A stretch of 41,292 nt of DNA from Calothrix sp. HK-06 (GTDB lineage: Bacteria; Cyanobacteriota; Cyanobacteriia; Cyanobacteriales; Nostocaceae). A program made the translations under genes and the position numbers. The number at the start of each line of letters is the position of its first letter. The stretch's first letter is position 1. This document shows, piece by piece, positions 3,474 through 36,500 of the stretch. Location: NCBI RefSeq assembly GCF_001904745.1, contig NZ_MRCD01000067.1, positions 10,048-51,339 of the forward strand. The letters run 5' to 3'. The notes beneath the pieces are model-generated. The model was given only the letters and a program-made list of their open reading frames with translations, was not told the origin of the DNA and did no database searches.

Positions 3474-3626
3474 ACCTTCAATTACTAGCGCTCGAAGAGC
3501 GTGGTTTCGTTTTTTTCATCCGTAGGAGCGTGACTTCCTCCCTTACGCTTGTATTCGTATACTTTTATGGTAGGTTGCCTAAAAAACTTTTATCATACTA
3601 TAAAGAAATTTTTTGCGAGAGGTCTA

Positions 3627-5577
3627 ATGAGCATTGATAATACTCGCACTCGGAATATCTTGCTTTTATCTGCAAATCCTAAAGGTACTAGCCAATTGCG
3701 TCTAGCGTCTGAAATGCGCGATATTAAGGAAGGGTTGAGATTGTCAAAGAATCGTGACCTATTTTCAATTAATGCAGCAGAAGCTGTACGCCCCAGAGAT
3801 ATACGTAGAGCAATTTTGACATATAAACCACATATTATTCACTTTTCTGGGCATGGTTCTCAAGAAGAAGGTTTGTTATTTGAAGATGAGGCGGGTGCAG
3901 TCAATTTTGTTGATGGGTCAGCTTTAGCTGGTTTATTTGAACTATTTGCTTCGCAAGTTGAGTGTGTTGTTCTCAATGCTTACTATTCAAAATATCAAGC
4001 TGCGGAAATTGCCCGACATATTAATTATGTAGTGGGGATGAGTCAGGAAATTCAAGATAAAGCGGCAATTGAATTTGCTGTGGGCTTTTATGATGGACTA
4101 GGCGCCGGGGAAGGTTATGATTTTGCTTATAAATTAGGTTGCAATGCCATCCAGATGGCTGGAATAAAACAGCATTTAATTCCAGAGCTAATTCCTTTTC
4201 ATAATTTATGTGATAATTTAAATGATAATTTCAAGTTGCAATTATCATCAGCAGTATCTAAAAAATATCTTTCCGAAGTATCCCAAAAAATATATATTGA
4301 AAGACCTCCAATTGAGCAAAAATGCTATCAATAGATTTTACAACCAGGCGCCTTAATTCGTCTCAAAGCACCGCAGAGAATGGGGAAGACATGGCTTTTG
4401 GAGAATTTGCTGTCATATGCTAGAGAGAAGGGTTATCAGACAGTAAAACTAGATTTGCTGCAAGCTGAAGATTCGATTATGGATAAGTTGAAAACCTTCT
4501 TGCAGTGGGTATGCGTTGATGTTTCTGATAGCTTAGACATCGAACCCTAAATTAATGAAACTTGGCAAGATATATATGGAGTGAATAAAAATTGTACTCG
4601 TTACTTTCAAAAGTATTTCTTATCGAGCGAAACTCCTTTAGTCTTTGCTATAGATAATTTTGAGCGATTATTTGCATATTCAGATATTTTCTCTCAATTT
4701 TGCTTACTGTTGCGGGGTTGGTATGAAAATGCCAAAGGAGGAGACAGAGTAGCTAATATTTGGAAGAAACTGCGGTTAGTGGTGGTTCATTCGACTGAAG
4801 TTTATCCTACTTTGGATAGCAATCACTCACCCTTTAATGTTGGGATACCAATTGAATTACCTGAATTTAATCAGCAACAGGTAAAATCTTTGGCAACTAA
4901 ATATGGGTTAGATAACCGGAGGACAACCATTTTTGACACAGAAATTGTGTTATTTTATGGTGGAAGAATCACAAAAAGATAATCATCGTTCTGTTGAGCA
5001 GGTAGTGAGAGTCAGGATAATTGAAAATTGGGAATTGCAAGATGAACCGGAGCATTTACGCACCATTTGCAGACGAATTTTAAGAGATGAGGAGCGCGCG
5101 GCATATTTATTAGAATTGTATCAGCAAATTCGCGGCTCGGCAGAGGTATTAAATAATGATAGTATAGAACAAAGCGAGCTATTATTATCAGGTTTAGTTA
5201 GCAAGCAACAGGATAAATTAAAAGTTTCTAATCAAATTTATCAGGAGGTTTTTAATCAAAATTGGGTTGAAGGCGAATTAAAGAAATTGCGCCCCTATTC
5301 AGAAACTTTTAAAGCTTGGGTTGCTTCTGGGTTTGCTGATGAGTCGCGACTTTTGCGGGGAAATGCGCTCTTTGATGCGGAGGAATGGGCAAAGGATAAG
5401 AATTTAAGTTATCAAGACAAACAGTTTTTAGCTGCTAGTAGAGAGAAAGAAATTCAAGAAGAAATTGCTGCCAGGGAAAAAGAAGCACAGTTAGAGAGGG
5501 AGAGAAAGGATAGAGAAGCGACTGAAGAAAGAAACCTATTATTAACTTGGACTTTGGACAAAATAGTACGTTCGTGA
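3627..5577 (+). pseudogene. CHAT protease - AAA-like STAND ATPase, decayed
   Basis: The frame from 3627 (SD-like GAGAGG just before the ATG) encodes a CHAT caspase-like domain with the catalytic His in HFSGHGS. The expected catalytic Cys in VVLNACYS is Tyr here (VVLNAYYS). The frame then hits a TAG at 4332. The same frame continues with the AAA-like (AAA_35) signature ILQPGALIRLKAPQRMGKTW (Walker A), then a TAA at 4548. It runs on through an FAIDNFERLF Walker-B-like stretch to 4982. A frameshift near 4940-4980 leads into the distal ATPase region (NWELQDEPEHL, GLVSKQQDKLKVSNQIY, NQNWVE) and a Glu/Arg coiled coil ending at 5577. Intact relatives usually go on into WD40 or other sensor repeats, absent here. 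The gene once coded a stress- or invasion-sensing protease and is now dead. Confidence 0.8.
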
Positions 5578-15485: not shown

Positions 15486-16655
<1,170 letters not shown>

Positions 16656-17005: not shown

Positions 17006-17818
17006 ATGGATATAGAAAAATTGATACCCCTTGCCACACTTACTGGCTTGGTTGGCATTTTTGGTTATATTACTAAATCGTTTACAGATTTGAATCAGAG
17101 AATGAAAGATACATACGAGAAATTGGAAAAACTAATAGAAAGGGAAAAGACTCATGAAATGGAAAATCTAAAAGCTAAACAGCAATTAGATATTAAAGAA
17201 TGGGAGCTAAAAATGCGAGACAAAGAGAATGAACTATCAGATTTAAAAAGAGAATACGAATTTAGAAAACAAATTACATCAGAAGAGACTATGGAAACTG
17301 TGAAAAATGCTAAAAATGCATTACAACAGGCTCTTGAACAACTTAAGCAGCAACTTGAAGAGAAAGCAGCAGAAAATGAAAATATTCGTTTTGAACTAGA
17401 GCAAGCCACTAGAAAATTTGAGTTGCAATTTCAGAATGGAATTAACAACTTAGAACAGGAGTTAGAAGAACATAAAAACAGATTAGAGAATTGTAAATTA
17501 GCTGCTAAATGGCTGGCGAGAAGCCAGGAAGATTTTGTGAAAGAAGCAAGTGACAGAGTTTTGGATAATAATCATTTACAAGATGTTAAGCAGTTTGTAC
17601 AGGATATTAAAAACTACATTGACTGGATATGTTATAGTCTCCCGAATGGTGGTCCTCTGCCAATGAATAAATTAGGTATAACTACCGTTTTGCCCGTATC
17701 TGCATATGTAGATATTTTTGAGTTGATTAAAAATAAGAGTTGTCAAGAGTTAAATGAGAAAGTAGCCGAGGAACTAAAACTGTACCTCGACCATCTGATT
17801 AAAGAATTAGTACGCTAA
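17006..17818 (+). CDS. Membrane-anchored coiled-coil protein
   Basis: 270 residues. An N-terminal hydrophobic helix (LIPLATLTGLVGIFGYIT, about 6-23) is followed by a long coiled coil rich in Lys, Glu and Gln (about 28-165). A C-terminal globular domain comes last (KLAAKWLARSQEDFVKEA, DWICYSLPNG, LPVSAYVDIF, VAEELKLYLDHLIKELV). The start has an excellent AAGGAGG ribosome binding site about 9 nt upstream. The C-terminal domain looks conserved-protein-like, but I cannot name it. The layout suggests a membrane-tethered sensor or scaffold. It has no GGCGCC site. Confidence 0.7.
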   Translation: MDIEKLIPLATLTGLVGIFGYITKSFTDLNQRMKDTYEKLEKLIEREKTHEMENLKAKQQLDIKEWELKMRDKENELSDLKREYEFRKQITSEETMETVKNAKNALQQALEQLKQQLEEKAAENENIRFELEQATRKFELQFQNGINNLEQELEEHKNRLENCKLAAKWLARSQEDFVKEASDRVLDNNHLQDVKQFVQDIKNYIDWICYSLPNGGPLPMNKLGITTVLPVSAYVDIFELIKNKSCQELNEKVAEELKLYLDHLIKELVR

Positions 17819-17882
17819 TCTACTCGAAAGTAGAAACAGTAAAACTAGCTATTATCTCTCATGTTCAAGCAAATGTGTGTTT

Positions 17883-18068
17883 CTAACAAGGTGGTTCTGG
17901 TTGTTTACCAAGCGCTTGAATGGCTGCCCAAATATCAGACATAGCATCATCTACAGATAATGCTGCCGATGAAAGTCCCTGACTTTGTAGCGTTGTTTTT
18001 AATGATTTTAAGTTGCAATATTCCTTCTCTAAAGACTTGGCTAGGTTGTCATTAGGAAATCCAGTCAT
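17883..18068 (-). CDS. Small 61-residue hypothetical protein
   Basis: The frame starts MTGFPNDNLAKSLEKEY and continues CNLKSLKTTLQSQGLSSAAL, ending KQPEPPC. A good GGGAGA ribosome binding site lies about 8 nt before the ATG on the minus strand. It is convergent with the coiled-coil gene, 64 bp away. The composition is helical and soluble. No family is recognised. Confidence 0.5.
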   Translation of the reverse strand: MTGFPNDNLAKSLEKEYCNLKSLKTTLQSQGLSSAALSVDDAMSDIWAAIQALGKQPEPPC

Positions 18069-18393
18069 AAGTATCTCCCTATACTAATGTATTTCGTAAA
18101 TACACTGAATTGTTTCGCACAATCAAGGGAAAGTTCAGGATAAAATTGCAAAAAAATCCAAAAAAGTAGTGAATTATTTTTACTCTGCCGAGGATTTTTT
18201 CTTGAAACTAGAGTTGAAGATTAGCACATATACTTACAACGCTCCCTCTCCTCCGGATATCAGGGTTAAAACCCGTTTCTATATGGAATCGCAGAATCAA
18301 AGTTTGAATTATGCGTTTACCTTAAGGTTATGGATGCTTAAGTTCGCACCGCAACCAAAGCATATTTAAGCTAATGGATTAAATCACATCTTT

Positions 18394-18478
18394 CAGTTCC
18401 GTCTTATACATAATCAACCAAGTTTTATCAGCTTTATTATTTTCTCCAAACAAAAATAATAAAATCCTGGTGCCCTTC
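18394..18478. repeat. Dispersed ~80-bp repeat, copy 1
   Basis: This stretch matches 22499-22578. Shared blocks in order are GTTCCGTCTTATA, AACCAA, TCAGCTT, TTATTTTCT, AAAATAAT and CCTGG(T/C)GCCCT. Copy 1 can form a hairpin from TTTATTATTTT and AAAATAATAAA. It is non-coding in both places. It may be a MITE or a small structured RNA. Confidence 0.45.
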
Positions 18479-18786
18479 AATAATGCTCGGATAAGCAGGG
18501 AGGCAGGGATGCTCGGATACGCAGGGGGAGAAGAACCCAACCCAAAAGCAACCCCTGCTCATATTGCTGCCCATGCCTGCCTCAACAGATAATTTTCGCG
18601 TGCCGAGCAGTATTGCCACTCCCGGTACTGAAATTATTAACCTTAATTAATATTTATGTATTAATTTTTACACTTTGCAATTTGCTATTATAAGTTTATT
18701 TTTTATCTAAAAATATAAATAACAGAGTCAATATTTAAGCAAAAAAATATTAGTAAACCTTGAGATTACGCTCTTTAAAAATGATT

Positions 18787-19278
18787 GGTACTACCTCATA
18801 ACTACAAAGGTACAGTGACGGTACAGAAGTGGTACTAAAAAACCTGTTTGTACCCTTTTTTATCCTGCTTTGTACCTGTTTTTTAGGTACTGAGTGCCAA
18901 AATAGTACCAACGGGGACGGAAAAATAGTACCAATTTTGAGCGTGGTACAGATAAAATTTCAAAAAATATTTTTTTTTAAGGCACATAATATGGATCCAT
19001 AGAAAAAAAATTTTTTGCGTTGCTCTTGGTACTGTACCAGGGTACTAAAATTAGTATTGGCGACTGCCTGAAATTCAAATTACTGTTTCAATGCACTGTT
19101 CTAAAGCTGTTTTCGGTACAAAAATTGTCGTTTTTTAGGTACAAAAACCGCTTATTGCTCGGTACGGGCACGGTACGGGAAGGAGTTTAAGTTAGTTTGA
19201 TTTCTGGTTTCCGAGATATTATTAAGCTATTAATTATAAGTAAGTTTGAGCTAGTACCAAAATTTTATGGTGCGGTAC
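18787..19278. repeat. GGTAC iteron field, candidate replication origin or centromere
   Basis: GGTAC occurs 19 times in 492 bp. Forward copies begin at 18787, 18809, 18820, 18831, 18886, 18945, 19028, 19041, 19115, 19138, 19161, 19172 and 19274. Reverse copies are at 18850, 18872, 18905, 18928, 19034 and 19254. Many extend to TTGGTACTA or GGTACAAAAA. Several gaps are 11, 22 or 23 bp, that is, one or two helical turns. A very A/T-rich block with runs of 8-9 A or T (18957-19018) lies in the middle. There is no gene from 18370 to 19701. Phased iterons around an AT-rich block are typical of plasmid origins or partition sites bound by a cooperative initiator. No Rep gene is recognised in the window. 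Confidence 0.6.
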
Positions 19279-19701
19279 GGCTTACTAACTGCATATAGTA
19301 AGCCTACAAGTTTTAATAAGCAATAAAAAGCGCTCCTCGTTCGACCGAGTGAGCGGAGTTACGAATTGCGGCAAGCGTTCTTGTCACCGTATCCAATGCC
19401 TTGGTGATGCGGCGCCTCTCCAACCGGAGGATAATATTGTTTCTTGAATTATAGTTTTTAAGTACTATATGTGAGAGTGTTTAAGCAAACTGCACTTTTG
19501 TCAAGAATGACCACGCACGCAAAACATATATGACTAGAATCGAAGGGGAGAATACACATTTACGCCATTACAGAAGCGCGTCTCATCGAAAAACCGCTCT
19601 GCTACTTCAAAACAGCAGATATGCTTAAAAACTTAGTTCGATTACTATTGCACTACTTGAAGTATAAGAAATACCTGTCTAAACGCTAATTCATCCTGCA
19701 T
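19279..19701. other. Non-coding stretch downstream of the kinase
   Basis: A hairpin (CGCTCCTCG paired with CGAGTGAGCG, one bulge) lies at about 19330-19357, and one GGCGCC site at 19411. No gene is seen. Confidence 0.4.
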
Positions 19702-21531
19702 TTATGCAATGCCAAACAGGCTATTAGCACGCTGTCCTAATCGCTTGACTAAAGTAATGAATTCAGTCGTAGGTACATTTGTTTCGCAAAAAGCATCGAA
19801 GCTATCTAATTCCCTTGTCTCTTGAAACTCAGTGGAAGACACTGAGGAGTAACCAAGGATTTGAGTATTCGGAGCAATATTTTTAATGTGAGCCGCAGTA
19901 CTCAAATCGCCCATCTTGGACATATGTAGATCAAGAACGACTATATCTGGGCGGTGGCGTTCAACCATTTCTATAGCTTCTTGACTATTACTGGCTACAC
20001 CTACGACTTGAAAATTTTTCTGACAAGAAAGAACCATTTGTAGGGTTATACGAGTCAGTTCATGGTCATCAACTACTAAAACTGTAATAGTGTTACTTGT
20101 CGGGAGCAATTGTTCTTTGTTGCTAGCTTGATACACTGGCAACTCTACTGTGAAAGTTGCTCCTTGTCCTTCACCCGGACTTTCCGCATTGACTGTTCCG
20201 CCATGCAGTTCCACTAGGTGACGCACGAGCATCAGTCCTACTCCTAGTCCACCAGAGCTACGTTCAGCGCTACCATCAGCTTGACGAAATCTATTAAATA
20301 CATAAGGCAGAAAATCAGGAGTAATACCAATCCCTGTATCGCGAACTTCAATTTTTACAGTTGGTGTAGAAGTTATTTGATTATTATCTGTATTGGGAGA
20401 CAGCTTAACTTGAATACTGCCGTTAGCAGGTGTAAATTTGAGAGCATTACTTAGTAAATTACCAACAATTTGCTGTAATCGATTGATATCACCTGTAACT
20501 ATATAGGAAGAAGAATTAGAAATATCTGAGTACGCTTCTTTTACTAATACTTCTGGAAAAGGCTCTATTATACATTCAAGGTGTAGCTTTTTCGTTTCAG
20601 CTTCTACACGTACCGCATTTACCGTTTGCAGTACCAAAGACTCTAAGTTGACTGGAGTCAAGTTGAGACATAGCTTACCTCGCATTATTCGCGATACGTC
20701 TAAAATGTCATTTATTAACTGGGTTTGCAAAAGCGCATTGCGTTCAACAATTTCTAACCCTCGCGCAACACTTTTCTCATCGAATTTTTGACGCTGAAGC
20801 AGTTTTGCCCATCCGAGTATAGAATTTAAAGGTGTGCGAAGTTCGTGCGCTAATATTGCAAAAAACTCATCTTTGATACGGTTTGCTCTCTCTGCTTCAG
20901 CCCTGATGCGGTTTGCCCTCTCTGCCTCATCCTGTACTGCTTGCTCAACTTGCTTTATGCGCTCATGGGCAAAGGCTCGTTCTAGAACATTCTGCACAGT
21001 AACGCGAGTGCGGAGGTAGTATGCGGGCGACTTTATAACGTAATCGTCCAGCCCCGCTTTCAAAGCTTCCGCAACAATTTCCTCGTTGTCGCTAGTAATC
21101 AACATGATTGCCGGACGCTCAGGATAAATATCCTTAATGGTACGCAAAACAGAAAGCGCGTTACTCCAGGGTAGCTGATCGTCTATTACTACTAAGTCAA
21201 AATTATCTATTGAGAGAGCCTGGAGCAAGGCTTCTTGTTCTGTAATTTCTTCTATTTCAATGCTAGGAAAATCGCGCCGCAGTTCTTGGAACACGTCATA
21301 GCGTCCTTGGCGGTTGTCATCAATCAGAAGGATACGTATTATACTGTGTGTGAGAATTTCAGAAGAGATAGTTGGCTCAAAATCTACATGCTGCATATCC
21401 TGAACGGGAATACCTAATATTTCATTAAGTAACCCTGCTTTGAACAGAGCCTCTATACGTTTTAACCCGTCTTGGGAAGAAGCTTCTAAGAATAGCTTCA
21501 CGCTACCTTCCTCAATTTTGTTGAGCGTCAA
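19702..21531 (-). CDS. Hybrid histidine kinase (REC-HisKA-HATPase-REC)
   Basis: Numbering runs from the TTG at 21531 (609 residues). A short conserved domain starts before this point, at about 21625 (WILVLSATIDEIDRPRAEAI), and ends near residue 45. Next come a receiver domain (ILLIDDNRQ; Asp117 in VVIDD), a coiled-coil linker (190-220), HisKA (FFAILAHELRTPLNSILGW, His229), the HATPase (NLLSNALKFTP, RDTGIGI, GGLGVGLMLV) and a second receiver (TVLVVDDHEL; Asp534). The second receiver is unusual: DLHMSKMGDLS instead of DLHMPxMDG, and the usual late Lys is absent. The true start is unclear, because the coding signal runs without a stop back to a slippery A run shared with the CHAT frame. Confidence 0.85.
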   Translation of the reverse strand: MTLNKIEEGSVKLFLEASSQDGLKRIEALFKAGLLNEILGIPVQDMQHVDFEPTISSEILTHSIIRILLIDDNRQGRYDVFQELRRDFPSIEIEEITEQEALLQALSIDNFDLVVIDDQLPWSNALSVLRTIKDIYPERPAIMLITSDNEEIVAEALKAGLDDYVIKSPAYYLRTRVTVQNVLERAFAHERIKQVEQAVQDEAERANRIRAEAERANRIKDEFFAILAHELRTPLNSILGWAKLLQRQKFDEKSVARGLEIVERNALLQTQLINDILDVSRIMRGKLCLNLTPVNLESLVLQTVNAVRVEAETKKLHLECIIEPFPEVLVKEAYSDISNSSSYIVTGDINRLQQIVGNLLSNALKFTPANGSIQVKLSPNTDNNQITSTPTVKIEVRDTGIGITPDFLPYVFNRFRQADGSAERSSGGLGVGLMLVRHLVELHGGTVNAESPGEGQGATFTVELPVYQASNKEQLLPTSNTITVLVVDDHELTRITLQMVLSCQKNFQVVGVASNSQEAIEMVERHRPDIVVLDLHMSKMGDLSTAAHIKNIAPNTQILGYSSVSSTEFQETRELDSFDAFCETNVPTTEFITLVKRLGQRANSLFGIA

Positions 21532-21650: not shown

Positions 21651-22228
21651 TCAGGTCTTTTTTTTTACATGAAGAACAGGAACTAAATGCTCAGGTATGC
21701 TTTGCAATTGAATTTCCGCGCGACCAAACTTATAAGCCATATCAACCGAGCGATTTGCCCCTAGTGCCTTGTAAAAACCAACAGCGAAAGTGATTGCAGC
21801 CTGATCACCAATTGCTTGGTTCATGCCTATTACGAATTGGATATGTTTAGCAATGGCCTCCGCTTGAGCTTCTGAATAACAAGCGTTCAGCACCACACAG
21901 TTGACTTGATCGGCAAACAATTCAAATATTGCAGCTAGAGCTAATGGCTCAACTGTTTGAGCTTGACCCAATTGATTTTCAAAGTAAAGAGTGCCAGTAC
22001 TTGTGCCATGCCCAGAAAAATGTATAATTTGTGGCTCAACATCAAATATTGCCTGAGTGATATCAGCGACACGCACCGCTAGCCGTGGTTTTAACACGAA
22101 CTTTCCCTATGTTTAGCGAGTTGCAGCCTCTCTTCAACGTCTCGACACTCTTGCTGCAAACGTAGACGAGAAGTATCACTAGGGTCAGATGTTAGAAACA
22201 GGATTGTAATGGGATTATCGCTGCTCAT
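21651..22228 (-). pseudogene. CHAT-domain protease with intact catalytic dyad, frame-disrupted
   Basis: The N-terminal piece from the ATG at 22228 reads MSSDNPITILFLTSDPSDTS, then RLRLQQECRDVEERLQLAKH. It then shifts frame near 22100 into LKPRLAVRVADITQAIF (in-frame GTG at 22097). The catalytic His (IIHFSGHGTSTG) and Cys (CVVLNACYSEAQA) are both present, unlike the CHAT copy at 3627. The frame ends VLHVKKKT and TGA right at a run of nine A residues. The histidine-kinase frame lies one base away. With one repair near 22100 and a -1 shift at the A run, a single CHAT-kinase protein of about 830 residues would result. Confidence 0.7.
21657..21663 (-). promoter_or_regulatory. A_AAA_AAG slippery heptamer between CHAT and kinase frames
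   Basis: In the zero frame the codons are GTA AAA AAA AAG ACC TGA. The heptamer A_AAA_AAG is the one used in dnaX frameshifting. A -1 slip continues GAC CTG AAG GAA directly into the kinase frame. I saw no clear internal Shine-Dalgarno or stable downstream hairpin. RNA polymerase slippage on nine A residues is an alternative. Confidence 0.4.
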
Positions 22229-22866: not shown

Positions 22867-23343
22867 ATGAGTGGTGGGAAGTCCCAGGAAATCGTTACGC
22901 CTCTGTCGGGTCAGCTGCGTTCGATAGCTGGTGAGTTGCGACATGGAAGTGATTTTTTAACTGAGTTGCAGCAGAAGGCGGGGACGACGCAGCGGGGGTA
23001 TGCGGGGAATATTAAGTTGTTTTTTGAGTATTTCTTAAATCGGGCGCCTACACAAGATGATGTTGAGGAGTTTTGGGGTTTGGATGAGGAGTCTGCTAAT
23101 ACGTTGATTTTGAAGTTTAGGAATCATTTGGTTGAGTCCGGGAGAAAGTCGGCAACGGTAAATCGGTATCTTGCGGCGATTAAGTTTTTGATTAAAGCGG
23201 GGAGAAATTTGAAGCGGTGCAATTTTCGGTTTGATAGTGACCGCATTGAGTCGATGCGGGTGACTAAGTACAGGGATACTTCTGGGGTGAGGGTGGATGA
23301 ATATAACCCACATTCCGCACCCCTAACTGTCACAAGTTCTTAA
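22867..23343 (+). pseudogene. Tyrosine recombinase, N-terminal half only
   Basis: The first ~148 residues form a SAM-like core-binding domain: LTELQQKAGTTQRGYAGNI, then NTLILKFRNHLVESGRKSAT and VNRYLAAIKFLIKAGR. They end at the typical RDTSGVRVDE, just before the catalytic domain would start. The last residues come from an IS1634-type terminal repeat inserted at 23307. If the IS and one target copy are removed, the frame still stops two codons later, so the catalytic half was lost before the IS arrived. Confidence 0.75.
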
Positions 23344-24242
23344 GTACTAAAGCAATGATTGTAAAATAGTATTTAGGAACTATGATGTGGATCGATACTC
23401 ATCAATATTTTAAAGCTTAATAAAAATAAATCCTATTTATATATAAGTAGCAAGAATGGGCGCCTCAGTCGTAGCCGTGCATGTGTTATACCTGAAACGC
23501 CTAAAAATAAGTTGCGGCAACAATTGAAAATAAATTATCGGTTACATAAAGTGTGAAAATTTTAATAGATGTCGTAACTTGTGTTTTATCGTCATGTCTA
23601 ATTCTAGAGATGTTGAAATTCAAAGCATAGACCATTTGGGTATAATTGCGGGGACTATAGATTCAATGGGCTTGGTAGAAATAATTAATGAAATAGTTGG
23701 ACAAGAGTCAGGAGAAAAAGTTAGCCCAGGACACGTAGTTAAGGCAATGATATTAAATGGGTTGGGTTTTGTAAGCAGTCCTTTATATATGTTTCCAGAG
23801 TTTTTTAAAGGTAAACCTTGCGAGCATCTAATAGGAGAAGGAGTAAAGGCAGAATATTTAAATGATGATAAATTAGGTAGAGTAATGGACAAATTATTTA
23901 TTAAAGGGTTAACGGAGATATTTTTCGCCATTAGTATTAGTGTGATGAAAAAATTTAATATTAGCTTTTTTTATAGAGGCTATTAATTAAGATTAATAGT
24001 CATAAATTTTGGTAGTTTATAATTGATAAATAATAAGTTAAATCAGATATTTATTCAATAATCATAAGTTCTTATCTATCAATCTAATCTCAATATTTAT
24101 TGATATTTATTGAGAATAGAAATTTTATCCAAGATAGGTAAATAATACGGCTATACAGACAATAAAAGTATTATTTTACTCTTGTTATAGAGAAAATAAT
24201 CAGTAAAAACACTTTTGTGACAGCTGGGGTGCGGAATGTGGG
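23307..24242 (+). mobile_element. IS1634-family deletion derivative (936 bp)
   Basis: The left end CCCACATTCCGCACCCC and the inverted right end (GGGGTGCGGAATGTGGG) match exactly over 17 bp. The match continues imperfectly through CTGTCACA (about 27 bp in all). ATATAA is present directly outside both ends (23301-23306 and 24243-24248), a 6-bp target duplication. The inside holds only the start of a transposase and an AT-rich filler. Confidence 0.85.
23594..23986 (+). pseudogene. IS1634 transposase N-terminal fragment (DUF4277)
   Basis: The 130-codon frame has DVEIQSIDHLGIIAGTIDSM, KVSPGHVVKAMILNGLGFVS and LYMFPEFFKGKPCEHLIGEG. These are the DUF4277 N-terminus of IS1634-family transposases, whose full length is about 500-550 residues. 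The DDE catalytic domain is missing, so movement would need a transposase in trans. Confidence 0.85.
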
Positions 24243-24274
24243 ATATAAGTAAAGCTCAAATACCCATTAAATTT

Positions 24275-26032
24275 ATGAAAGTTGAGGAAGCTCTTGATCT
24301 GGCGAATGAATTAGTTTTTGCTAAAACAGGGGATTACCTAAATAAAGCCCAAGAAGCTGTATTTTCAGGATCTTGGAAAGGCAAGACTTATCAGGAAATA
24401 GCAACCGATTACGGTCTTAGTAGTGCCTATCTAAATCAAGAAGTAGGTCCTGAGCTATGGAGGCTTCTCTCTGAAGCTTGTGGTCAGAAGGTTAGCAAGA
24501 AAAATTTACATTTGGTGCTAGAAAAGCAGGGCACTACTCGCATTGGAAATCGTGTTTACCCTACCGATGCCGATACTTTACAGGCTGTAATCCGACCTTT
24601 ACTGGAAGAACCTCAGTCTTCCTTAGAGGTAGCTGATCCAGTTAATTTTGATAACTTGAACTCCATTATTGATAGGATTGCATCTGGTTCACATACCGAT
24701 AACGATATTGCGACTCTACGCCAAATACTAAACTCAGGTACCCGCCAGACTTCATTGCAATTGGGTAAGTATAATGTCAATATTGGGCAAGGAAGTGACA
24801 TTCACATTGGAGAGCGCGTTTATAATAGCTTCAGTGATGAAGCAGTACAAGCAATACTATCAACCATCCAGTCTAACCACAAACTATCAACTGTTCGCAA
24901 CCAATTTCAGTCACTTATCCAAGATAAAACTGAAGGCTTTGTTGGGCGTGAGTATATTTTTCATGCTATCGAAACCTTCATAAACGAAAACTCTAAAGGC
25001 TATTTCTTAATCACAGGTGACCCTGGAATGGGCAAAAGCACACTTTTGGCGAAGTATGTACAGGAGACCGGGTGTGTAGCTCATTTCAATGTACAACTGC
25101 AAGGTCAAAATAGAACAGACCAATTTCTAGAAAGTGTTTGTAAGCAACTAGTTGAGCGTTACCAACTGCCTTATGACCCTCTACCGTCTAATGCAACAAG
25201 AGATGGGGAATTTTTAGGACAACTGTTGGATGAGGTAGCCCAAAAACGTAATGATAAGCCTGTTGTTATTGCTGTTGATGCATTAGATGAGGTTGACTCT
25301 GTTAGTTATAGAGACGCGGCGAATATATTGTACTTACCACCCCATTTGCCAGATGGCGTATACTTCCTTCTGACAAGACGACGTGGCGTGGAGATACCTT
25401 TGAGTGTATTTGTACCTATACAGCTTTTGAGTCTACTCGACTATAATACGGAAACTCAAAAGGATTTCCGTATGTACATTCAAATGCGGATTAATAGGAG
25501 TGAAAAGTTAAGGCAACGAATTAATGAGCGTGAGGAAACAATTGCTCAGTTTACAGAAAGAATTGTGAATAAAAGCGAAAATAATTTTATGTACTTGCGC
25601 CATGTCTTGCAAGATATTGAACAAGGGCTGTATAGAGACTTAAGTTTTGAAAGCTTCCCGCAAGGTCTGCAAGGTTATTACGAGTTTCACTGGCGGCGCA
25701 TGGGTATGACAGCGAACCCATTGCCGAATGCTAAAATCAAAATTGTGTACATATTGGGAGAAGTTCGTCAGCCTGTCTCACGTCAAAAAATTTGTGATTT
25801 TTCTGGAGAAGATGCTGTAACAGTTCAAACCGTATTAAATGAATGGCAAGAGTTTTTATACGAGTTGTTAAAAGATGGACAAAGAGTCTACAGTGTCTAC
25901 CATTCTAGTTTTAGAGATTTTCTGCACCGAAAAGACGTTTTGGAGAAGACTGCTTTAACTATTCCAGGAATCCATGAGCTTATTGCTAAAGACCAGTTAA
26001 ATAAGTGGAGAAATCGTTGCCATCGTGAGTAA
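24275..26032 (+). CDS. HTH-VMAP/STAND NTPase, N-terminal part of a split WD40 gene
   Basis: The first ~80 residues (MKVEEALDLANELVFAKTGD, QEIATDYGLSSAYLNQEVGP) match the winged-helix domain found at the start of vWA-MoxR-associated and related conflict proteins. A linker with NVNIGQGSDIHIGERVYNSF follows. The NTPase then begins GFVGREYIF, with Walker A ITGDPGMGKSTLL (about 245-257) and Walker B VVIAVDALDEVD (about 328-339). The frame stops at 26032 in the helical region. The sequence continues in another frame from 26025 with matching family features. I chose the ATG at 24275; the upstream GTG falls inside the IS end. The IS, 32 bp before this start, has replaced the native promoter. Such proteins sense invasion or stress and recruit effectors. 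Confidence 0.75.
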   Translation: MKVEEALDLANELVFAKTGDYLNKAQEAVFSGSWKGKTYQEIATDYGLSSAYLNQEVGPELWRLLSEACGQKVSKKNLHLVLEKQGTTRIGNRVYPTDADTLQAVIRPLLEEPQSSLEVADPVNFDNLNSIIDRIASGSHTDNDIATLRQILNSGTRQTSLQLGKYNVNIGQGSDIHIGERVYNSFSDEAVQAILSTIQSNHKLSTVRNQFQSLIQDKTEGFVGREYIFHAIETFINENSKGYFLITGDPGMGKSTLLAKYVQETGCVAHFNVQLQGQNRTDQFLESVCKQLVERYQLPYDPLPSNATRDGEFLGQLLDEVAQKRNDKPVVIAVDALDEVDSVSYRDAANILYLPPHLPDGVYFLLTRRRGVEIPLSVFVPIQLLSLLDYNTETQKDFRMYIQMRINRSEKLRQRINEREETIAQFTERIVNKSENNFMYLRHVLQDIEQGLYRDLSFESFPQGLQGYYEFHWRRMGMTANPLPNAKIKIVYILGEVRQPVSRQKICDFSGEDAVTVQTVLNEWQEFLYELLKDGQRVYSVYHSSFRDFLHRKDVLEKTALTIPGIHELIAKDQLNKWRNRCHRE

Positions 26033-33031: not shown

Positions 33032-33160
33032 ACCATTCCTCCAGGTAAAGCTAGGATTCTGGTGATTTGATAAAGGATTATCCACTTATAAGTTCAACTA
33101 TGGTTTAACTTTGCTTAACGAAAGTCGTTAACTACTACGATTAGCGGCATGTAAAAATAA

Positions 33161-33547
33161 TTTGTACAAACTTGATGCTTTCACATCAAAGTTACTTATT
33201 TTTGATATTTAATATACAATTTGTACAAGTAGTATACACAATCTTGTATACGTATATCAATACTATACATATACATTACTACAAAATGTATGTCAATCTC
33301 TATACAAATTGTACAGTGTGATTACTGAAAAAGTAATCTATTAGATAGCTAAATTCTATTGCCGCAAAGCTGTCAAGCTTGATAAAACAGGCAATTTGAA
33401 GCAAATAGGTATTGTGCGAACTAATGTATTTTATTTGCCGAGACTCCTTATGTAGCTTGCTATTAACCTAATAACTGCTACTAAGCGTGTACATGTTGTA
33501 CAATTATAATTACCTTTAGATATAATAAATGTACATTTTGCACAAAA
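33161..33547. promoter_or_regulatory. Five TTTGTACAAA-like palindromes in a divergent promoter region
   Basis: TTTGTACAAA (33161), TTTGTACAAG (33220), ATTGTACAGT (33308), GTTGTACAAT (33495) and TTTTGCACAAAA (33536) lie between the protease and the 1077-residue gene. This gap is about 560 bp, very AT-rich and gene-free. The sites look like operators for one dimeric regulator; the last is 47 bp before the large gene. Confidence 0.45.
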
Positions 33548-33593
33548 AAACATCTGGTTAGAAACAGAGTTATACAGAACTAAGGTTTAAGGT

Positions 33594-36500
33594 ATGCGGA
33601 AGCAGAATAATCACTCTGAAAGTGACGAAAGCTCACCCAACTCTAGCTCATCTGAAAGTAAAGATTCTTTAAGTTATGAGAATCGTCGTTATGGCGATTC
33701 ATACAGAGCTAGTACCGTGTATAAATATTTGCTCGACCATTTTACCGATTTAGGGGTAAATGAAAAGGAAAATATTATTAAACCCAACGAGAGTAGTATT
33801 GCTAATCAATGGGGTCAAAAAAATAATCGAATTTTTATTAGACGTGTTTTACGTTCAGTACTGACTGAATACTATAGTGAAAAAGAAAGAATCTCTGTAG
33901 TTCCAGGTTTGACTCTTGGAAAGCTAGTAGAAATTTTAGAAGGAATTCAAGCATACCGAACTGCAAAAAGATTGGAAATACAAGATTCAGAAATATCCCT
34001 AACTTTAACTAGAGCAGAGAAATTAAGGGTATTTCGTCTCTATTATCAGTTAACTTTGGAAGAGAAAAAAATATTAAACCTCCCCGTACATTCAGGAGAA
34101 GCGATTCTACATGAGTTTTTATTAACTGTTACAGACCCCAATACAGGTTTAAAACCTGAAGATAGTTTACTGTTTTACAAAAAAATAACAGATATTTTTT
34201 ATAATTCATTTAATCAAACAAATTTTCACAGCAGATTAAATATATCTGTTTCAGTCACGGATATAATTCAGAAGAATATTGAGGTGATACTAGAAAAACT
34301 TTATCAAGGAATAAATGAAGATTTAAAAGTACAAAAAATCAAAGAGCTTGTCAGAAAAATTTGTAATGAAATCAGTAGAATCGAATTGCAATCTGGTTTC
34401 AGACAATATAAATCTCTGTTAAAAAATGAAATTATTACTGATGCAGAAAAGCAGAATAATAGCCTATTACCTCCTAAATTTATAGAGCATTTAACTCGCT
34501 GTATTGTAGAAAATGAAGCACTAAGTGACGATTTTCCTATTCATTTAAAACATTTGGAAATTGAGAAAATACATCCATTACCTCTGTATTTGAAAACAGA
34601 AGAGCAGAAGTTTGGTTTGCTCAATCCGCTCTTGTTAGAAGATGACGAAGATGTGGAAGATGTTGTTGGTTTAAAAAATCAATTTGCGTACAAAATAAGA
34701 GTACATTTTTATATAAAAATCCCTGACAATTACCAAGCTTGGATTGCAGGAGAATATCATCAAGTTAGTTTTTTTAATGAAAATGAAAATAAATTAGAAT
34801 TTTTTGAAGAAATTTCTGGTATTGGCAGTCCTATCCATAATATTATTGCGGCAATCAATAGAGTATTATTGTGGGATATTCCTAGTTTAAGTAACTATTT
34901 ACCGTTAGCTCGTGACATTTTAAATAATAACGAATTTTTTGGTAGCTCCAGTCTCGTTTGGTCTTATTGCTTGGTTAACCTCTGTAAGAAATCTGATATT
35001 GAAAAAGCAATTCAAGAAAATAAACTTTATGATGAAATAATTTCTAATAATGAAGCAATTTACGGTGAGTACTGCGGGTTTGATAGTGTGGAAACAGCTG
35101 CGAAAGCTGCACTACAAGCCAGGTTAAGAGCAATTAAGCAAACTGGAATCAAGCCAGAAATTTATTTTACTGAGCTATGCCATCGCGTTGAAGAAGTAAA
35201 TGCGCTACGACAAGCAGAAAATTATTTAACTTTTTATCCGTTTTCTTTGAAAGCAATGGAAGGTTATTTAAATAAAACAATTTTCTATAATCGTTATCGT
35301 GTCGTAGACAACAATTTAAATTTTGTAGAATTAAATGATGGTAAGGCATGGAGTATAGTTGCTTATTATGCTCATTTAACTATAACTGAATCTTATCTTC
35401 AAGAAGGTCTTTACCGTATTGCTAAAAAATATTTAGATGTTTTAGAACCTCACATTATAGAAGCCAAAAAAGGCAAGAATAAATGTTTTCGCGATTTTAT
35501 ATTTGTCATGTATGAGCTTTGCCAGTTTAGGTATCATTACTTGACAGATTTAGAAGATATAGAAAGTCGTGAATCGCATTCAGACCGCGCTATAGCTATT
35601 CGCACAGCTACAGATAGTTTAAATAATGCTGAAGAATATCTAAAAAATATCTTGAGAAAATACTACATTGTTGATGCATGTGGTCAAAGTAATTTCCATC
35701 CATTCTTCTATCTTTTATCAAGGGTATATGCACACCGGGCGAAACTTTACATCTTCACATCTTCTTATACTGACCACCCTGGTAATAGATGGGATGCTTT
35801 AATACAACCAATTCATTTGTTAGAGAAAGCACGAATTTATGCAGCTAGAGATGCAAATCCGGCACTTTCTGCTTATTGGTCTGCCTATCAAAGTTGGTGC
35901 TATTTAATAGTGGCATATTTAGGAGACTACAACCAACCAACTAAAGGATTTAGCAGAGAAGAGTGTATAGATTGGTCTAAGCGACTGATAGACCATGCCT
36001 TAATTTGCTACAAAAAAATTGGTAAAATATGCTACCAACAAATTAAAGATAATGGAGGCAGAATAACTGAGTTGAAAAAGGAAGAGGATGGTAAATATTA
36101 TGAGCATTATGGGGATACGCGGATACAGGGTGTCCCTCTTATTAAAGAATTAAGTAAGGGAAGTGATGAATCTGAACAGATATACGATTCTGACAATAAT
36201 GTTATAAATTTTGATTTTTCTATTTTTATTGATATTTTTACAGAACATAAATCAGTATATTTATTTGGCACACATTCAAGTATTTTACTTTTTGCGATGG
36301 GGATGCTAAGGCTTTGTGATGATGAAAAAAAAGAAAGTGAAAAATTAATACAAATTAAAGAAGCTATTAGAATGTTTACGTATTGTTCTGCTATCGCTGA
36401 AGATGGAAATAAAGGTAAGAAAGATAATAATAATGAAAAACTTTATTTAGAAAGGATTTTTAACAAAGGAGATTCTCTAATTAGGGGTCTATATCCACAT

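Follow-up and report, generated by a model that had tools for sequence, protein, structure and literature searches.

A dispersed family of helically spaced GGTAC fields in Calothrix, candidate iteron-type origins on plasmids and chromosomes

Which protein reads a dense field of GGTAC motifs in gene-free DNA is the question raised by a stretch of 41,292 nucleotides (G000:C208:10048-51339, in the following "the window") from a Calothrix genome of 9.99 Mb. A replication initiator, a centromere protein and a regulator polymerising on DNA had been proposed in the sequence-only reading. The recount gives exactly the 19 GGTAC/GTACC motifs claimed there within 492 bp (18787-19278), and the gene-free setting is confirmed, ORFs of at least 100 aa being absent throughout 17819-19701: the field lies within a 1.9-kb gap, and both flanking ORFs are directed inward at it. 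When all 5-mers of the window are compared, strands merged, the most extreme cluster of 492 bp is GGTAC at 18787 (Poisson 5e-23), followed by AAAAA (8e-18) and by GTACA at 33163 (2e-9). Around the latter, at 33149-33640, the 5-mers GTACA, ATACA, GTATA and ATGTA are in local excess, possibly because of a tandem repeat. The background had been put too low, at one GGTAC per 2-3 kb: 46 copies are found in the about 40.8 kb of the window outside the field, roughly 1 per 0.9 kb. The total of 65 copies in the window exceeds that of shuffled sequences (mean 42.6, largest 61).

The spacings originally quoted (18809-18820-18831 and 19115-19138-19161-19172) are correct, and the helical phasing claimed on their basis is found in the left array, where one phase modulo 11 is common to five of the six plus sites; the four minus sites have phases 7, 7, 7 and 8. 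Compared to randomised positions, this phasing has p=0.0024 at period 11; taking the best among five periods gives p=0.008. The A/T block described in the middle of the field (18950-19020) is indeed 80% A+T, against 61% window-wide. At roughly 570 bp, the element is larger than the field itself; its parts, and two nearby gene loci, are reported here:

18725-19300, plus strand: whole element common to other loci, from BLAST extents and from aligning 24 field loci out of 29
about 18637-19335, plus strand: longer form of the element, present in some copies
18787-18949, no strand assigned: left array, 10 GGTAC/GTACC sites ordered >>>><<><<>, with an 11-bp phase shared by 5 of 6 plus sites and 3 of 4 minus sites
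18950-19020, no strand assigned: A/T block, 80% A+T, candidate unwinding region
19028-19045, no strand assigned: central triad GGTAC-GTACC-GGTAC, with gaps of 6 and 7 bp
19115-19176, plus strand: right array, iteron-like direct copies spaced 23, 23 and 11 bp
19183-19245, plus strand: A/T-rich block, conserved and free of GGTAC, around GTTAGTT and ATATTATTAA (alignment A1, 20 loci)
19254-19278, no strand assigned: terminal GTACC/GGTAC pair; its 82 and 20 bp spacing is preserved in many copies
22867-23343, plus strand: tyrosine recombinase gene, remnant of the 5' part, 93% identical over 148 aa to a field-adjacent gene in G004:C83
27635-29454, plus strand: parA and parB, near the field

The A/T block at 18950-19020 is missing from one group of chromosomal copies. 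The block at 19183-19245, with 75% A+T, could possibly be a second unwinding element or a recombination core. A structured RNA was rejected: the right module scores -3.4 kcal/mol with a covariation term of 0, and no Rfam match is present in the window.

Other genes of the window deserve a mention of their own. On this plasmid-like contig a photosynthetic reaction centre protein gene (psbA-like) is found at 15573-16655, and a psbA-like gene with the same start is carried by plasmid G005:C1; the 270-aa protein encoded at 17006-17818 has a Phycobilisome family match at its C-terminus. A hybrid histidine kinase whose N-terminus holds a TRADD-like domain is encoded at 19702-21531, accompanied by CHAT fragments at 21651-22097 and 3549-4334 and by an EAD10 protein at 24236-26032. 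The truncated gene at 12682-14199 matches a portion of plasmid p3's pPIWI_RE_Z partner protein (1062 aa) at 80% identity and, judging from this similarity, is probably the relic of a pPIWI_RE island.

The field is not unique. Homologous fields are found by BLAST in six other places of G000, eight when weaker profile matches are included. Among 60 genomes, field BLAST gave matches in 12, G000 included: those in G002-G006, which belong to the same genus, are strong, those in the other six short and weak; the best 8 candidates per genome were scored, so that copy numbers are a lower bound. A profile of the right part, used with stricter filters that may miss copies, matched 6 of the family's 217 genomes, each of them Calothrix-like; the other 211, including the congeneric G001, gave no profile match reaching E 0.001. 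In BLAST searches, the field was found in 72,556 plasmids solely on p3 of Calothrix PCC 7716, and in none of 50,697 phages. A scan for the pattern gave at least 117 loci in genome contigs (80 of them among the matches listed) and 87 in viral contigs, mostly attributable to chance: at least 7 GGTAC within 500 bp occur in 4 of these 204 loci, corresponding to three known Calothrix contigs and one viral contig.

The set retained for comparison includes 29 fields, after L023, L024, L035, L045 and L047 had been dropped for having too few sites, being duplicates or lying outside. Across this set the sites recur in the same order and at the same spacing, with gaps and losses, although many pairs are just 65-80% alike. 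The recurring spacing is 22, 11, 11, 19, 22, 14, 19, 23 and 17 in the left array, up to the A/T block, and then 6, 7 / 23, 23, 22 or 11 / 82, 20. Two insertions of one repeat, about 125 bp long, lie at or within a single field (L048 7348-7474 and 7898-8028); among the matches listed, this repeat has more than 30 copies in G006 and some 20 in G000.

Field copies are thus carried by both plasmids and chromosomes of Calothrix-like genomes. The sequence-only reading had counted equal clusters at unrelated loci against itself, and such clusters do exist in G000; as they are homologous copies of one element, they indicate a dispersed family rather than a plasmid-specific site. An origin or a centromere confined to this replicon is ruled out by the homologous fields at chromosomal loci.

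The bases of the GGTAC sites change more slowly than neighbouring bases of the same class. Between plasmid-type pairs, 3.8% of the G/C within GGTAC are changed vs 17.7% of the others, and 0.8% vs 9.4% for A/T; between chromosomal orthologs, the corresponding figures are 12.5% vs 38.8% and 7.1% vs 20.4%. In a closer chromosomal set the difference is significant for G/C (13.5% vs 29.4%, p=0.005) and not for A/T (9.6% vs 16.1%, p=0.31). Overall, GGTAC bases are slower in six comparisons out of six, by 1.7 to 12 times, significantly so in five; the compared pairs have members in common, and the alignment may be biased towards pairing GGTAC with GGTAC. Since the slower change is also seen between chromosomal orthologs, the sites, those of chromosomal copies included, are probably still read by a protein.

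Base composition around the fields was analyzed as the difference in GC skew between right and left flank; windows of ±20 kb were chosen first, other sizes being added afterwards. At 20 kb the difference is positive for 17 of the 18 field loci vs 14 of the 20 controls, the latter being blocks sampled at roughly regular positions from just two genomes, G002 and G003. After grouping by orthology, 10 independent loci average 0.052 vs 0.015 in 18 control groups (p=0.004), both numbers being small; two homologous controls were merged for this comparison, and control c130, from G003, homologous to a field locus and devoid of a field, was excluded (-0.049). The same loci and groups differ in AT skew with p=0.04. 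Leaving aside the two loci on contigs unassigned to the chromosome, G000:C13 and G000:C211 (C211, like G004:C14, holds a partial field), eight loci average 0.057 (p=0.006). The mean switch peaks at offset zero, and each flank contributes to it: -0.023 on the left and +0.039 on the right, in field orientation. When all 18 loci are compared with the 20 controls, orthologs being counted, third codon positions show the switch in plus genes (p=0.02) as well as in minus genes (p=0.00004), and so does noncoding DNA (p=0.001); no difference is seen in gene strand (p=0.16). The skew minimum lies within 4 kb of the field in 10 of 18 loci vs 3 of 20 controls, and in 5 of 10 independent loci. At ±10 kb, the contrast between the 10 loci and 48 intergenic gaps is weak (p=0.04), and a difference of 0.106 is also reached by one control block.

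Plasmids feature the same tendency. In p3, the minimum of the detrended cumulative skew, at 49,118, falls inside the field (48,933-49,490), which would occur by chance in about 0.6% of cases (557 of 93,644 bases), and the largest ±15 kb switch among 94 positions is at 49,000. In plasmid G005:C1, of which 38 of 102 kb were examined, the skew minimum is 0.6 kb from the field. At ±5 kb, ten fields from plasmid-type contigs or accessory regions, a set without controls in which L026 and L027 represent a single copy that was duplicated, are all positive (0.04-0.33); at L029 the difference is zero at 7 kb. On the window's own contig the switch is small (0.045 at 5 kb, 0.086 at 10 kb), and the cumulative minimum is not at the field. 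p3 also carries a second candidate replicon, with a second GC-skew trough nearby: a RepO-like gene followed by dnaB (L196 18419-21125); the Pfam scan of p3 covered at most 30 of its about 80 proteins. RepO and dnaB are replication genes of phage style on a cyanobacterial plasmid.

Sites from which the field is missing give a mixed picture. Two orthologous loci of the field-less genome G001 are control-like (0.009 and 0.027). At argG, in five genomes without the field (G005 having a remnant), the differences are 0.056, 0.069, -0.002, 0.064 and 0.052, the skew being kept in four of five; we take this for a lag after recent loss, though something else may cause the skew.

Many chromosomal copies lie between core genes, in varying orientation, at places that are orthologous in several genomes; glyS, argG and ung, confirmed by Pfam, are among the flanking genes. 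On the chromosome of PCC 7716, fields lie near 3.587, 5.657 and 10.490 Mb. Some genomes have the field at argG and ung; in others it is absent there or survives as remnants. In G003, a plasmid-like island, partly collinear with plasmid G005:C1 and containing ParAB of the window type (88.5% at the DNA level), is located between glyS and the field, and in the tree the glyS fields cluster with that of the window (support 0.97). From the glyS island and this grouping, it appears that chromosomal copies can derive from integrated plasmids. That two G002 fields 20.7 kb apart might delimit a single integrated plasmid was considered and discarded, as they are only 68% alike. No initiator gene in common was found among ORFs of at least 100 aa around the field loci.

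The standard origin was examined by counting perfect DnaA boxes (TTWTCCACA) behind dnaA, a gene retained in all seven genomes of the genus. No perfect box is found in the 1.5 kb behind it, which reaches into dnaN, in G000, G002, G004 and G005, nor in the 277 bp examined in G006; six are present both in G001, which is field-less, and in G003, which has fields. Five field-less genomes outside the genus, hand-picked from those of the profile search, have 8 (G015), 6 (G060), 6 (G009), 5 (G021) and, with dnaA at a contig end, 0 boxes (G062). Boxes are therefore missing in five of six field-bearing vs one of six field-less genomes (n=12). The disappearance of boxes behind dnaA in most field-bearing genomes suggests that plasmid-type origins, located at the fields, replaced oriC there. 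DnaA identity to G002 (98% in the box-less group, 91% in G003, 84% in G001) fits a putative series from oriC only, through oriC plus fields, to fields only.

The fields themselves do not look like DnaA-dependent origins, a reading rejected for the absence of box clusters: in the 29 fields with 200-bp flanks none is present, and one field has a single DnaA-like box. Three perfect DnaA boxes are found at L036 9999-10055, 1.3 kb from the 10.49-Mb field of G002; as an origin signal they were dismissed, the boxes being part of a 17-bp tandem repeat that is missing in the G003 ortholog.

We consider it likely that the field is an iteron-type origin spread by plasmids, several chromosomal copies of which are still under selection. 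A protein, probably supplied in trans, would bind the GGTAC sites, at helical spacing flanking A/T-rich segments, and replication would start at the field and proceed bidirectionally. The element would have spread with plasmids, some of which, once integrated, left selected copies in the chromosome; the chromosomes of these Calothrix would thus carry several plasmid-type origins. Among the features expected of an iteron origin, the fields display short sites at helical spacing, an adjacent A/T-rich region and a minus-to-plus skew switch; a cognate initiator gene beside the sites was not found. Speaking against this reading, besides the missing initiator gene, are the skew kept at argG loci without the field, the small switch on the window's own contig, the second candidate replicon of p3, the lack of boxes in field-less G062 and the retention of dnaA. 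Origin activity, the initiator acting in trans and the take-over of oriC are each what we infer from these data. Of the proteins proposed in the sequence-only reading, the initiator gains from the iteron-like syntax, the slow change of GGTAC and the skew switch, whereas the centromere protein loses ground, because plasmid p4 has no field. Promoter or regulator fields were rejected, the orientation of the flanking genes being inconsistent.

The centromere deserves a closer look, as a ParB-like or ParR-like protein could coat 11-bp phased sites and segregate both plasmid and chromosome. The phasing speaks for it, and parB is found about 1-10 kb from several plasmid fields. Yet p4 (AP025022), which has the closest ParB of the plasmid collection (83%), carries no field and no GGTAC cluster in the first 20 kb around parAB, and by BLAST no plasmid of the collection except p3 has a field. 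The window's own parA/parB are thus not tied to the field, and the field is rejected as their centromere; p4 is also the kind of relative without the cluster that the sequence-only reading had listed against itself. A centromere alone would not predict the skew switch, and we consider this explanation decidedly unlikely. The switch is likewise left unexplained by a non-autonomous mobile element, with GGTAC as transposase sites and chromosomal copies in decay. Copies are indeed dispersed, the tree shows multiplication within one group of chromosomal loci, and several genomes have lost or shortened copies; GGTAC, however, is conserved in place between chromosomal orthologs, and we find a mobile element barely plausible. 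Field-less sites resemble deletions, not clean empty sites.

More has to be said about a tyrosine recombinase site, serving plasmid resolution or integration, in which the GGTAC field would be the accessory part, the conserved A/T-rich block the crossover core and the chromosomal copies scars of integration. Nine distinct plasmid-type fields are available (window, L018, L025, L026=L027, L028, L029, L037, L039, L049): five have a full-length tyrosine recombinase gene at 105-290 bp, in every case to the right of the field, these genes belonging to divergent subfamilies; two have recombinase remnants within 4 kb. Similarity, moreover, stops at or inside the conserved A/T-rich block in L017, L021 and L036. 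On the other side, no recombinase is found in the stretch examined of L039, nor within 7 kb of L026/L027; no clustered recombinase gene lies beside chromosomal copies; and around a recombinase of 92% identity in G005:C11, 17 kb are free of any field. A recombinase site alone predicts no skew switch, and we regard it as an unlikely account of the family.

The iteron-type origin, in contrast, accommodates the switch, and it leads to a wider proposal, which is tentative though quite possible: in one Calothrix lineage, GGTAC origins would have colonised the chromosome and replaced DnaA/oriC, a natural integrative suppression throughout a species group, giving rise to a multi-origin bacterial chromosome, of which G003, having both systems, would be an intermediate. 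If true, this would show a path by which a bacterial chromosome exchanges its single standard origin for several that derive from plasmids.

Short sites about 11 or 22 bp apart, on one helix face and with an A/T-rich neighbour, characterize the iteron origins RK2 oriV, P1 oriR and F ori2, and Vibrio ori2/RctB; iteron origins usually adjoin a rep gene. The Calothrix field resembles RK2, P1, F and Vibrio ori2 in its helically spaced short sites beside A/T-rich DNA. It differs from iteron origins in its unit, GGTAC, whose two orientations are mixed in a set order, in that no adjoining rep gene was found and in being present in several copies per chromosome. Among the literature titles listed on cyanobacterial repeats, iterons, DnaA and origins, Calothrix PCC 7716 plasmids, CyRepA and integrative suppression, none names this element, the search for GGTAC repeats being a weak word match. 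Among cyanobacterial plasmid replication proteins, CyRepA and CyRepX have been described, with CyRepA homologs also on many chromosomes, according to the portions of PMC10079941 and PMC10899382 considered here; the word "iteron" is absent from the main texts of both papers. In the neighbourhoods of the fields, no protein of CyRepA/CyRepX type was recognised.

How polyploid chromosomes of some cyanobacteria replicate without DnaA from several origins is an open question. According to the excerpted text of PMC7198777, in Synechocystis 6803 and Nostoc 7120, dnaA is dispensable and DnaA-independent replication occurs from several places, by a mechanism called unknown. The retention of dnaA in Calothrix parallels these two species as described in that excerpt. 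The same portion of PMC7198777 names no family of origin sequences, whereas in Calothrix, another lineage, a defined sequence marks candidate origins: with a recognisable candidate, countable copies and culturable strains, the multi-origin question becomes directly testable. The excerpt also reports that, in Synechococcus elongatus, a deletion of dnaA segregated after a plasmid had integrated and its origin had taken over (PMC7198777). That rescue, as far as described there, concerns laboratory mutants; in Calothrix the same arrangement, with several copies, would be the natural state of a species group.
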